This document shows positions 22,502-27,754 of a stretch of DNA of 64,000 bases, one piece after another; the first letter of the stretch is position 1, and every line of letters starts with the position of its first letter. This DNA is from Balamuthia mandrillaris. Lineage: Eukaryota; Discosea; Longamoebia; Balamuthiidae. Under the pieces are notes generated by a model, which did no database searches, was not told where the DNA came from, and was given only the letters and a program-made list of their open reading frames with translations. A program made the position numbers and the translations under genes. The stretch spans positions 1 through 64,000 of the forward strand of contig JAVKOQ010000121.1 of the NCBI GenBank assembly GCA_031835245.1. Direction: 5' to 3'.

Positions 22502-24855
22502 ATGCAAAAACCAAACACACCGAAAGAAGGTACTCCAACCCCCACACAGAGGCTAAACTCTCTTTGTCCCCCCCCCCTCCTCTCCTCCTCTCCTCCACTG
22601 CACAGGTGCATTGACCTCTTTATGGCTGTGCCACTGCGCAGGTGCAGCTGCCTCGCCACTGCGCAGCCCTGCCCACCACCAGCAGCACAAGACCCAGGAG
22701 CGGAGGTCCAGATCGCCCCAGCACAAAAAAGAACCCAATGCACCTGCTCTTTCTCCCTCGCACGTGACTGCCAGTGCTGCTGGCAGCAGCGTAGGAAGCA
22801 GCGGGAGCTCTAGAGCAGCACAATCCGTGTGGCGACCGAAGCGGGTGCTAACACCACTGCAAAACGTGCTGGACGTAGACAGCCCTCCGCGTAATGTCGC
22901 GCTACGCCTGAGTTTCAACGTGACGGAGGAAGACCAAACCTGTGAAGCAACATACACCCTGCTCACTGCGGCTGACAAAGAGACCACCTCCACGAGTACT
23001 GCCCGTAAAGCCAAGGCTGGCCTTTATGAACCGGTGCCCCTGATAGAGGACACTGAGCTGATCATCTTGCTTGATACCCTCCCGGATACCTTGCGACAAC
23101 CCATTTGGGACTTTCTCAGTGGTGAGACGGAACGGCAGCTGGTAGAAATCTTGGTTGACGTTGGTACCTATCATTGATCACATATTACTTTTTTTGAAGC
23201 TACCCGCTTATTAACGTTTGGCAAGGTCGTCCGCCTACCCTTTGGTTTCTTAACGACACGTCCGTAAGAGCCCAACAGGACGTAACGCCGGAACACTTGG
23301 GGCAATGCTTGGAGGCCCTCCTGGACGGTGGTAAAATGAGTTTTACTTCTGATAATCGGTTTGACTCTCTCTGCTCTTTCCTACTGCCGTTGTTCTGTTA
23401 ATGCTGAAATGCTGCATTAAGCATTGGTATATCAAAGACATTACACAGGATCAGCGCCATGCGAAATAGAGTTGATGCCGTGGTCGGCCTTACATACCGC
23501 ATTGGGCGTCACATTCCAGGTATGTTATTCCTTTGGGCGTTGCCGACTCCTAAAGCTAACGCAAATCATTTCTTTTAAAAGGCGTGTGTAACCTTATACA
23601 GGATCTTATCTTTCAGTACTGCATTCTCTCCTCCCATTCTTTCTTCCTTGCTTATCACTTTTTCTCGTTTTTTTTCTCTTTTGTTATTTTCTTTGCTTTC
23701 TTGTCACGTCTTGTGCTTTCTTCTCTGTGCTAACATCAAACAGATGTGCGAGAAAAAGTAACAGCAGAACACCAAAATCACTGCTTCTGTTGGGTCCACC
23801 TGGCGCTGGTATTTTATCTTAATTCCTCGTTATTTTATTTACACTGTGAAATAATCAGGTAATGCTTCCATTAGGTAAAACCACTCTTTTACGAGATGTG
23901 GCACGCTGTCTCTCCGATGAAATGGGAAAACGGGTGTTGGTTATAGACACTTCCAACGAAATCGCTGGCGATGGCGATGTTCCACACTCTTGCATCGGCT
24001 TCGCCCGTCGCTTGCAAGTGAAAAACAGAGGCATGCAACACAACATCATGATAGAAGCTGTACAAAACCACAACCCACAAGTTATCGTTGTGGATGAAAT
24101 AGGAACTGCCCCTGAAGTACGTACTCCTTTCACCTTCATAACTTTGTTGGCTGTTGTAAGGTGTTAGGAATTATTATAGCTATCTAACTGGCTGTTCTAG
24201 GTAAACTCAGCACGCACCATCGCCCAGAGAGGAGTTTCAGTGGTGGCGACTGCGCATGGTATTGACCTCGGCAGTTTGTTGAAAAATCCAACGTTAGTAT
24301 CGCTTGTTGGTGGTGTCCATCCAGTTATCCTTGGAGACAAAGTATGTTTATTTCTGTAAATTTATTCTGTTTTTCTCTTTCTTAGCCTCTCTCACACATA
24401 AATAGGCAGCCTCTCAAAGAAAAGGCCCAAGAATGCAAAAAACTGTTTTAGAAAGAAAGGGAGCACCAACTTTTGACATGCTGGTAGAATTAGTTGGACG
24501 AAACGATTGGCGTGTGTACAAAGATGTTGCTGCCACCGTAGACACCATGCTTGCTAATCAACCCAGAGTACTTCTTTCCTTCTCTCCCTCTTCCTCTTTT
24601 TTTCTATTGTCGTGCTCTCGTTCTCCCCCTCTTTCTCATTGTGATTTCTCTGTCTCTTTTCATCTCTGAATAATCATTCATACTAAGGTGGTGGAACGGA
24701 GATGGCTTAATGACGATGGAATAGCAATGGCCCGCTTTTGTTTGTCCAGTGAAGAAACAGAAGCAGCAGCGATGGATGACATAAAAGAGATCAGCAACAC
24801 ATATGACTTTGTGGATGTAACTCCCTCTTTGATGCGCGAAGAGCAATCGCTCTAG
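22502..24855 (+). CDS. Ycf45/SpoIIIAA-like P-loop ATPase
   Basis: Exons read as about 22611-23163, 23200-23358, 23422-23519, 23582-23615, 23744-23808, 23875-24116, 24201-24341, 24406-24567 and 24688-24855. All junctions are in phase except the first. Exon 1 has no in-frame ATG downstream of 22611, so the start may be at ATG 22502 in another exon. Diagnostic blocks are [11 protein letters not shown], a Walker A split by an intron ([14 protein letters not shown]), [29 protein letters not shown] (Walker B), [17 protein letters not shown] and [12 protein letters not shown]. These match the Ycf45/SPD1-SpoIIIAA AAA-type family known from cyanobacteria, plastids and plants. The C-terminus (WRVYK... 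to LMREEQSL) is extended. The molecular role of the family is poorly defined; nucleic-acid association is usually proposed. Confidence 0.85.
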
Positions 24856-25293
24856 ATCAAAGCAGCCAAGGTATCACTCTGCGCTGTGCTTTGCTTTATT
24901 AATAAAAAAGATCAACCAACGGAATTTATTCATACGTTCAGCAAGCTGTGAAAAGACATAGAACGAGAAGACTAATCTTCAGCCATAGTGTGGTTCCATA
25001 ATAATAACTCTTTTACAGTTGCAGAACAATTTTGCCACTGATCATGGATGCTGTGTAGGATTACATCTAGTAACTTATATTGATGTAAGCTGGCAAGCGT
25101 TTGCAAACATTGCTCTATCTATGATGAAGGACCGGTGAACTTTGTGTATCGCACCCTGGAGGGAAAGGAAAGAAAACAGCTTACATGAATTGCAGATTTC
25201 TTCACACTGAAAGTGTCTTGATTGCATTTACTATGGAAAAGAATAGCAGCAGTCATTGCACGACAGTAAACGTCTGTTCGGCTCAGTTTGATC
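24856..25293. other. 3' region between convergent genes
   Basis: AT-rich sequence downstream of both the Ycf45-like and the F-box/Rho genes. It probably holds their 3' UTRs. No further gene seen. Confidence 0.5.
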
Positions 25294-25848
25294 CTACACA
25301 GTTATTTCATCATTCATTAGTGGTGTTGAAACTTTCAAAAAAAAACAAAAGTCTGCAACGTACTCGTTTTGCTGAAGCATTGCTTCACACAGATTGGCTA
25401 GAGCCGCCATCAGGGTGGCATGTTTGGACGTATCTTCTCCCTTGGACAGTAGTGGTCCAGTAAAGGTTGGTGTTAAGCAGGTAAATAGAGGCTTTGAATG
25501 GGTCAATCTAAACGTGAGATTATAAATGGTATCTGCACCAGGTGGAGTCTGGCCAGACTTAGAGCGATCCTGGAGTAAACCGTGAATGTTGCTAGAGACT
25601 GCAGCTGCTAAGGCGTTGGTTATTTTCTCGGGAGCCTGCGAAACAAAGGATTGAGTGATAATAATAATGAAAGTAACATTAAGATCACGTACATTAGAAG
25701 TATCAAATTGAATGATGAAAGATAACATTTCTATCAAAAGCTTTGTCACAGAAGAATTTTTTTCCAAATGCGCTTTGTTTCCTTCCACAAGTTGAGAACA
25801 AGCCGCTTCCACAATGGCACTTGCAGCTGGCAATTAAGACAAAGGTAT

Positions 25849-25892
<44 letters not shown>

Positions 25893-27041
25893 ATGAAAAA
25901 GGGCAAATAAAGTGGAAGAATGACATAAAAAAAAAGGGCAACAGGGTATTTATACACACCGACATTATCAACTACACGAGCATCCCACTCATAAAGAAGA
26001 GTGACATAATCAACCGTTTGGTCTCGTAGTTCCTGCGGGAGATTTGCTGCTTCCTTTGCAATCTCTAAATTCCAGTCCTGTTTTTGAACAAAGGGATAGC
26101 CCTGAAACCAATAACCAGGTTAGTCAAGCAAACACCAGAAAAGATACAGAATGCAGGTACCTGAGAAACAAATTTCCCACAGTAAGTCGCAGAAGAGGCT
26201 CCAATATCACGAATGCATTGCTTGGGATCGGCAAGGAACTCCAAGGCGACTTGCTGGCCGTTGTTTGTTGTCATGGTATATTCGGGCTTGAGGTTAATAA
26301 ACCCTCGTAGATCCTTTGGCAAGAACTTCCCAGAGGTTTCTTTATGCAGACAATTATGAGTCAAGGGTGCATGAAGAACAGAAATGGGAAAGAAAGCATA
26401 TGCCTACTCTTGCTTTTCTTGGATAAGAGATTGTGAAATATACGTAAACCTCCTGCCTTGTTCTTGCGGTGACTTCGTCTCCAATTTGCCATGTGAGTTT
26501 CCACGACCTGTTGTAATAACGCATCCACGCCTTCTCCAGTGGCTATATTGCAGATCAGTGGATTGGAGAGGCCTGAAGGGGGTTCTCTATCAGCGTCGTC
26601 ATCACAGAGTACCACATTGATTATGCTTATGTTCGGCAGGTGGTGCATTACTAAAGTACCCATGAGTACAATTGAAAGGAAAGCACCAGATAAAGGAGAA
26701 ATGAGAGATGAAGATGAAGGTAGAAAGAAAACTCGAGAGACGGAGAGACAGAGAGACAGAGAGGAGGGAGGGAGGTGATACTTTCAGGAGTCCAACGAGC
26801 GTTAATGTTGTTTTGAGTGGTAATTGCTTCTGTGGATCTTCCTCCTCTACAACACAGGAGCGCAACTGTTTTTTTTAACATGTTAGCGAGTGAAAAGAGT
26901 GGCAAACTGCCACGATCGTGGGAAGCCAACCATCCGCCCCCACATAGCACAGCGGCCTTAACCTGTCATAGTCTTCTTCGCCTGGTGTGTCTTGCCTGTT
27001 ATATTAAAAGAAAAGGTCAACAGATGAGAGATAGAAGAAAG

Positions 27042-27072
<31 letters not shown>

Positions 27073-27754
27073 CAGGTAAACGTTTATTTTGTGGCCAGAG
27101 GTGGTTGTGGCAGGCGCTACAAACCTAGGGGCAGGAACACTTTAGATTAATAATATGACCATTGTAAAAGCAGAGAAGAACCTACGAGTTGAACACGGTG
27201 GGCAAGTACCCGGCTCGCACCGTCCCAAAGGCGATGCGCTCACAAAGCCTTTCAGAGAAGAAGTGAACAAGAGTGAAAAAGATAGGGTTGGGAGGAGAGA
27301 GAAAAAGATGTTACTTGGATTTAAGGCACCGCGCTTCTCCAACCACAACCACTTTGGCGGTGTGCACGGGGTTGGTCATTGCAGTAGCCCGGAATAGCTG
27401 TCGGTAATCCTCTTCCCTCGCCATTTCTCCTGGTGGCGCTTCGACTTGTCCAAAGCGTAGCGTGTACCATGCCTTCCATATCTTTCTTACGCGGAGAAAA
27501 AGGAGAAAGGGCTAGCTTAGAGAAGAGGGGAAAAAAAAAGAGAGGAGAGAGCAGCAGAACGTTACATCGTGATTGAGGGAGAGCTCTGACCAGCTACGGC
27601 ACACCAGCGCGATGGCAGGAACGTCCGCAGGCTCCAGATGCTCGACCCATATCTTGTAGACAAGGTCCCACGGAATAACCGCCCACACGTCGCGTCCATC
27701 GGGCTGTCCAGGTTGGCTCTTCTTGTTCTTGCCTTGCTTCCTCTTCTTCTGCAT
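25294..27754 (-). CDS. F-box protein fused to an atypical Rho-family GTPase domain
   Basis: Eleven phase-consistent exons: 27754-27566, 27481-27315, 27248-27186, 27124-27074, 26995-26931, 26865-26782, 26650-26450, 26339-26161, 26101-25960, 25826-25693 and 25635-25294. They encode 538 residues. Residues about 24-63 are an F-box (VIPWDLVYKIWVEHLEPADV, then ALVCRSW), followed by IWKAWYTLRFG as in many F-box proteins. Residues about 104-265 follow Rho GTPases block by block with matching spacing: KVVVVG, a P-loop GEARCLKS (usual GxxxxGKS/T, so Gly is Leu), YLPTVF (effector Thr kept), DTPGEEDYDRLRPLCY (catalytic Gln is Glu), RWTPEIMHHLPNI, and LCDDDAD where T/NKxD is expected. The last ~265 residues are mostly helical and unrecognised. 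The F-box predicts Skp1-Cul1 binding. GTP binding is doubtful, so the Rho part may be a pseudo-GTPase scaffold. Confidence 0.85.

Follow-up and report, generated by a model that had tools for sequence, protein, structure and literature searches.

The stretch analyzed here, referred to as the window, comprises 64,000 nucleotides of a 64.8 Mb genome assembly of the soil amoeba Balamuthia mandrillaris (Amoebozoa, Discosea), and a gene on its minus strand (contig C120) encodes, in 13 exons, a protein of 614 amino acids in which an F-box is followed by a Rho-like domain and a CYRI-like domain (Table 1). The exons join in phase, GT..AG borders occur at 12 of 12 introns in both haplotypes, and the spliced model agrees at every residue with the NCBI protein P0001. 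Because exons 2 and 7 each code across a domain junction, the three domains belong to one gene and are not joined neighbors. The in-phase joining of an F-box to a Rho-family domain had been proposed in the original prediction and is borne out; the CYRI domain in the C-terminal half had been missed, however, and the gene had been given 11 exons and an end at 25294, because intron 11 was read through to a chance stop, instead of its actual end at 24972. A last exon at 25155-25075 was likewise considered and dropped, as P0001 and CYRI homology point to 25118-24972. It is unlikely that exon 1 and exon 2 belong to two separate messenger RNAs, since the F-box match spans this junction and exon 2 encodes the edges of both domains; the match also crosses the junction in the paralogous P0004 sequence (residues 24-69, with exon 1 ending at 63) and at the P0006 locus (residues 25-68, with exon 1 ending at 65).

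The NCBI label of P0001 is 'Rho-BTB domain-containing protein 1', in which neither the F-box nor the CYRI domain is mentioned. Since no BTB domain was found in P0001 in Pfam scans at E<=10 and at E<=1, its identification as RhoBTB is rejected; the automatic 'Rho-BTB' naming hid a different architecture, here termed F-box-Rho-CYRI (FRC).

Table 1. Exons and domains of the FRC gene in the window (aa, amino acids).
Feature	Position	Strand	Description
Whole gene	24972..27754	-	Spliced model identical to P0001; F-box, Rho-like, and CYRI-like domains in order
F-box (aa ~21-66)	27473..27694	-	Spans exon 1/2 junction; profile match 21-66 to FBXW7 F-box; Pfam F-box 38-66
Rho-like domain (aa ~104-265)	26475..27361	-	PF00071 at 106-227
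CYRI/DUF1394-like ('Rac1-binding') domain (aa ~278-606)	24999..26438	-	Fills C-terminal half
Exon 1 (aa 1-63)	27566..27754	-	Basic N-terminus and most of F-box; family profile A6 finds FBXW7/SKP2
Exon 2 (aa 64-119)	27315..27481	-	F-box end (IWKAWY), linker, Rho first strand/P-loop (KVVVVGEARCLKS); both domain edges in one exon
Exon 3	27186..27248	-	Rho domain switch I region (GYLPTVFN)
Exon 4	27074..27124	-	Rho domain beta2-beta3 region
Exon 5	26931..26995	-	Rho domain switch II (DTPGEEDYDRLRPLCY)
Exon 6	26782..26865	-	Rho domain beta4-alpha3 region
Exon 7 (aa 207-288)	26408..26650	-	Rho domain end and CYRI domain start in one exon
Exon 8	26161..26339	-	CYRI domain
Exon 9	25960..26101	-	CYRI domain
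Exon 10	25693..25826	-	CYRI domain
Exon 11	25364..25635	-	CYRI domain; LAAAVS in place of canonical CYRI FSYYRRTL
Exon 12	25185..25293	-	Conserved CYRI C-terminal segment (YCRAMTAAILFH); beyond originally predicted coordinates
Exon 13 and stop	24972..25118	-	Beyond originally predicted coordinates

The three domains of the fusion protein

The F-box, originally placed at residues ~24-63, is detected by profile at ~21-66. Its Pfam scores in P0001 are weak, with PF00646 at 4.3e-4 and 20.5 bits (cut-off 20.5) and PF12937 at 3.8e-4 and 20.6 bits (cut-off 24.3); the PF12937 cut-off is passed by all three other full-length family members (26.7, 34.3, and 30.4 bits), and the domain is conserved in four of four full-length members by Pfam together with the family profile. 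A profile built from the four N-termini (A6) places FBXW7 and SKP2 structures at the top (FBXW7 at 1.4e-5), and 29 of the 32 PDB sequences that it returns at E<=1 are F-box proteins, counting SKP2, CDC4, DIA2, and KDM2B, which we take to be such. Skp1 and cullin genes are present in the Balamuthia genome. The F-box repertoire of the genome is very large, with 1114 first-look PF12937 candidates, of which 150 were scored and all 150 lay above the cut-off.

The Rho-like domain, expected from the first reading at ~104-265, was confirmed by profile (PF00071, 4.3e-11, 43.1 bits; cut-off 21.6), and phmmer aligns P0001 to chains of RhoA and Rac1 with E-values of roughly 1e-18 to 1e-19 (RhoA, 2.5e-19); with the family profile, RhoA chains reach 3.2e-23. 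The canonical Rho spacing claimed for it holds through switch I (31 residues inclusive from VVVG to PTVF, as in Rac1), but beyond this point there are small insertions and the Rho insert is deleted. Motifs were compared by aligning the four full-length members with Rac1, RhoA, and Cdc42 and with Balamuthia's own Rho GTPases. The P-loop pattern GxxxxGK[ST] is absent, GDGAVGKT being replaced by GEARCLKS, GDERSFKT, GSEQSLKS, and GDGACLTT; the second glycine (Gly15) is gone from all four members, and the lysine is retained in three. The G4 motif [NT]KxD occurs in none of the four, with its Asp retained by alignment in the window member (LCDD), and the stretch of the Rho insert helix is deleted by alignment in every one; the segment that follows, in the place of helix 4, has become shorter in the window gene, whereas in the other members it shows no similarity. 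Thr35 is retained in three of four, switch II is near Rac-like in the window gene only (DTPGEEDYDRLRPLCY) and unconserved in the paralogues, and Rac Asp38 is replaced by Asn in the three members with a clean alignment over switch I and, as aligned, also in the fourth. Judged by these motifs, the fused Rho domains are predicted not to be functional Rho GTPases.

The C-terminal half matches PF07159 at 2.3e-10 and 40.6 bits in P0001 (cut-off 23.1), with P0002 (30.2 bits) and P0006 (26.8 bits) also above the cut-off and the P0004 sequence and P0005 below it (18.7 bits each). In CYRI-B, Arg160 forms a salt bridge to Rac1 Asp38; R160, R161, and S157 matter for binding, which is weakened by S157A (PMC7955166). 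YYRRTL was present in all 56 canonical CYRIs returned by a protein search, Balamuthia's own P0007 (YYRR) included, and the Arg-Arg motif is found in none of five family members, which carry LAAA[VI] or MALSI there instead; the alignment of this region is ambiguous by a gap (HMMER leaves YRR in an insertion, MAFFT sets it opposite Ala/Val), with no Arg pair either way. The S157 position is Ala in P0001. The known Rac-CYRI contact is therefore altered on both sides, the Arg-Arg pair being absent and Rac Asp38 changed to Asn. There is likewise no N-terminal myristoylation signal: P0001 starts with MQKK, and because the CYRI domain is internal it has no N-terminal Gly for myristoylation.

The alignment-based structure model (alignment A5) has a mean predicted local distance difference test (pLDDT) score of 67.8 and a predicted template modeling (pTM) score of 0.54, reaches good confidence for the most part only beyond residue ~300, and leans to the CYRI fold because A5 holds 25 canonical CYRIs; prediction from the single sequence gave a mean pLDDT of 34.8. 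Foldseek returned Rho-family chains weakly (ranks 4-7, E 0.05-0.1), so that, as modeled, the fold search adds little on the Rho half and nothing on the F-box, the assignment of which domains is drawn from sequence profiles.

The FRC family and its distribution

When the genome was searched with P0001, exons in the same order turned up at three more loci (C160/C102, C29/C457, and the locus in tandem with the latter), each with two apparent alleles and represented at NCBI by P0004, P0006, and P0005; the precomputed NCBI domains of P0006 list F-box-like, Ras, Roc, and CYRI together, and Pfam does not recognize the Rho part of P0005. All 12 introns of the window gene have a counterpart in P0004, in phase and at most three alignment columns apart (8 at the same column), and P0004 carries two introns beyond these. 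C29 and C457 each carry a tandem pair of family members; on C29 the second copy gives a far poorer alignment than its C457 counterpart (score 290 vs 655), with an internal stop. A fifth relative, P0002 on C142, comprises only the last part of the Rho domain together with the CYRI half, starting inside the family's Rho region; upstream of the CYRI half no recognizable F-box or N-terminal Rho exon was found with the family profile, the weak matches there scoring no better than the control strand except for one at E 0.13, and the 5' part has apparently been lost or has diverged beyond recognition.

The second haplotype of the window gene (C597) differs by 37 substitutions and no gaps in 1845 coding bases, and in the introns by 32 substitutions and 100 gap columns, with all splice sites kept. 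The nonsynonymous (dN) and synonymous (dS) divergences are 0.0149 and 0.0397, and 20 of the 37 coding substitutions, taken as changing an amino acid, were set against a rough neutral share of 0.75 (p = 0.005, an approximation). With models guided by P0001, the dN/dS of the apparent allele pairs is ~0.26 (C160/C102) and ~0.30 (C29/C457), so that the three pairs, window haplotypes included, span about 0.26-0.37. Across exons 10-12, and in the introns that separate and directly follow them, the two haplotypes do not differ at all; elsewhere they do, as after gene conversion or recombination.

In trees, the four fused Rho domains and the five fused CYRI domains each fall on one side of a 100/100 branch, a pattern consistent with one fusion followed by duplication, with long branches limiting any further reading. 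The CYRI tree includes 25 of the 56 canonical CYRIs, and the Rho tree omits C251 and C85 (no usable full Rho protein) and the near-duplicates C274, C174, and C59. P0003, a search hit with Rho and BTB domains, was left out: alignment A4 had placed its C-terminal half wrongly against the CYRI part, and the alignment was rebuilt without it (A5). Given the paralogues, the common introns, and the second haplotype, a chance origin of the F-box-Rho-CYRI order is excluded.

FRC proteins form a small multicopy family, so far seen in Balamuthia mandrillaris only. Protein searches returned no F-box-Rho-CYRI combination outside Balamuthia, a weak negative in that each search missed members found by others (one P0004, P0005, and P0006; another P0001, P0002, and P0006; another P0004 and P0005), and of six pattern matches on viral contigs none was confirmed. 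Among the matches listed in literature searches, no paper on a Rho/F-box or CYRI/F-box fusion appeared; a Naegleria paper (PMC8296547) was set aside as a lead, its matches lying only in the reference list. F-box and BTB domains have been reported in fusion with ARF-family GTPases, so that the pairing of a small GTPase with an F-box is not unprecedented as a kind (PMC8358228). FRC is a new domain architecture within the known small-GTPase/ubiquitin-ligase fusions.

Candidate function and competing explanations

The gene structure, the homology of the three domains that one protein unites, the existence of a family, and the losses of key residues are established. On this basis we propose, with about an even chance of being right, that FRC serves as a substrate receptor of a Skp1-Cul1-F-box (SCF) ligase and that its receptor half, a fossil Rac-CYRI module, targets the Rac/SCAR-WAVE circuit. 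CYRI binds active Rac1 and opposes SCAR/WAVE (PMC7955166, PMC8305917), and since the Rho domain has lost several residues for nucleotide binding and a CYRI domain stands at the end, Rac/SCAR-WAVE control is the closest functional neighborhood. The F-box would dock on Skp1-Cul1 to form an SCF ubiquitin ligase, and the pseudo-Rho and CYRI-like domains, a cis-linked fossil of the Rac-CYRI pair, would pack together in cis as the substrate-binding half, presumably without ordinary guanosine triphosphate (GTP) switching and without the CYRI Arg-Arg contact to Rac. The recognized target, which would be marked for degradation, is probably a protein of the Rac/SCAR-WAVE circuit (e.g., a regulator reading the Rac surface, or a CYRI/CYFIP partner), since the receptor half goes back to Rac and its brake; with the arginines for Rac binding lost, active Rac itself is a less likely candidate. 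A more specific version, which is conceivable and rather doubtful, holds that Rac and its brake CYRI were fused into one non-switching receptor, the composite surface of which lets the F-box deliver SCAR/WAVE-circuit proteins to SCF in a lineage-specific, multicopy form; Asp38 to Asn and the loss of Arg160/161 would then have gone together because the halves are held in cis.

Several points weigh against the proposed SCF receptor. The F-box of the window member only reaches the PF00646 cut-off and lies below that of PF12937, and certain F-box proteins function outside SCF. Over residues 1-290, 10-residue means of pLDDT range from 35 to 74, and with the F-box and Rho parts so poorly modeled, packing of Rho on CYRI is not seen in the model. 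The window member retains the residues at Lys16, Thr35, Asp57, Gly60, and, by alignment, Asp118, and with these places occupied it could still bind nucleotide. The loss of Rac-binding residues could also reflect decay and not new use.

RhoBTB combines an atypical Rho domain with BTB domains that bind Cul3, and autoinhibition has been proposed for it (PMC4931677); Dictyostelium RacA is its amoebozoan relative (PMC8305917). Like metazoan RhoBTB1-3 and RacA, FRC couples an atypical Rho domain with an adaptor domain of cullin ligases (PMC4931677, PMC8305917), but it has an F-box where these have BTB, with the F-box preceding the Rho domain whereas BTB follows it, and an added CYRI domain. The suggestion that it is a RhoBTB counterpart accordingly holds insofar as a Rho-family domain accompanies an F-box, and fails insofar as FRC, with several nucleotide-binding residues gone and a CYRI domain at its end, is not simply RhoBTB with an F-box; perhaps the two work alike in that a Rho-like domain forms part of a ligase adaptor. 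A switch of the RhoBTB kind, in which a nucleotide-binding Rho domain releases a ligase from autoinhibition (the proposal made for RhoBTB and Cul3), would suit the Rho homology, the near-canonical switch II, and the several nucleotide-contact residues kept in the window member, along with the autoinhibition model itself (PMC4931677); the loss of Gly15, the absence of G4, and the deletion of the Rho insert stretch, each in four of four members, together with the lack of a detectable BTB domain, make it improbable. ARF-family GTPases fused to ligase domains (TRIM23, and the BTB and F-box cases) likewise bring a small GTPase into the ubiquitin system, yet the GTPase is ARF and not Rho, and no CYRI domain is described in them in the part of the source available (PMC8358228). 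FBXW7 and SKP2 are similar by profile and also carry the F-box ahead of an interaction module, which in FRC is the pseudo-Rho and CYRI-like pair and not WD40 or leucine-rich repeats.

FRC is homologous to CYRI-A and CYRI-B (FAM49, DUF1394) via PF07159 and differs from them in that its CYRI domain is fused to an F-box and a Rho domain and that the Arg-Arg Rac1 contact is absent from five of five members. This difference bears on the alternative that the CYRI domain captures Rac-GTP and the F-box has Rac ubiquitylated, giving negative feedback on Rac: the PF07159 homology of P0001, the binding of active Rac1 by CYRI in other organisms (PMC7955166), and the reported role of the F-box protein FBXL19 in Rac3 ubiquitination and degradation (PMC3994216) speak for it, but with non-Arg residues at the R160/R161 places in all five members and Ala in P0001 at S157, where S157A weakens binding (PMC7955166), we regard it as unlikely. 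CYFIP/Sra1 of the WAVE complex is much longer than FRC, which ends with the DUF1394 region, and the FragX_IP family was not found in P0001 (Pfam scan, E<=10). A decoy or scaffold lacking ligase function, in which the pseudo-Rho domain titrates Rac GTPase-activating proteins, guanine nucleotide exchange factors, or effectors and the F-box-like helices are structural, is suggested by the almost Rac-like switch II of the window member and by the adjoining frame with a RhoGAP domain, read away from the gene; as the F-box is conserved in four of four full-length members and the paralogues have not kept switch II, the odds are against this explanation too. That separate genes were fused by annotation, or that the copies are on their way out, would account for C142 with neither a recognizable F-box nor an N-terminal Rho half, the poorly aligning C29 copy with its internal stop, the undetected Rho part of P0005, and the long branches, and is nonetheless very improbable given the junction-bridging exons 2 and 7, the exon order kept at four loci, the shared introns, and the dN/dS in the three allele pairs.

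Should FRC prove to be an SCF receptor, a Rho-family member would be wired into a cullin-1 ligase rather than a cullin-3 ligase, and a Rac-like domain would be naturally fused to the CYRI protein that is its partner. The cell might in this way mark regulators of movement for destruction, as a lineage-specific, multicopy means of degrading actin regulators, and FRC makes testable the question of whether a dead GTPase and a dead effector can serve as a substrate receptor.

Neighboring genes

About 200 bp from the fusion gene, an open frame on the plus strand (~27955 onward) is read away from it and leads to the RhoGAP domain, recognized as PF00620 at 1.1e-27 in a hand-joined piece (~28.58 to 29.25 kb); it is possible that the two share a promoter. 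The left neighbor (~23850-24855, plus strand) resembles the SpoIIIAA ATPase family (PF19568 at 6.9e-11, hand-joined piece), which is unexpected in an amoeba.
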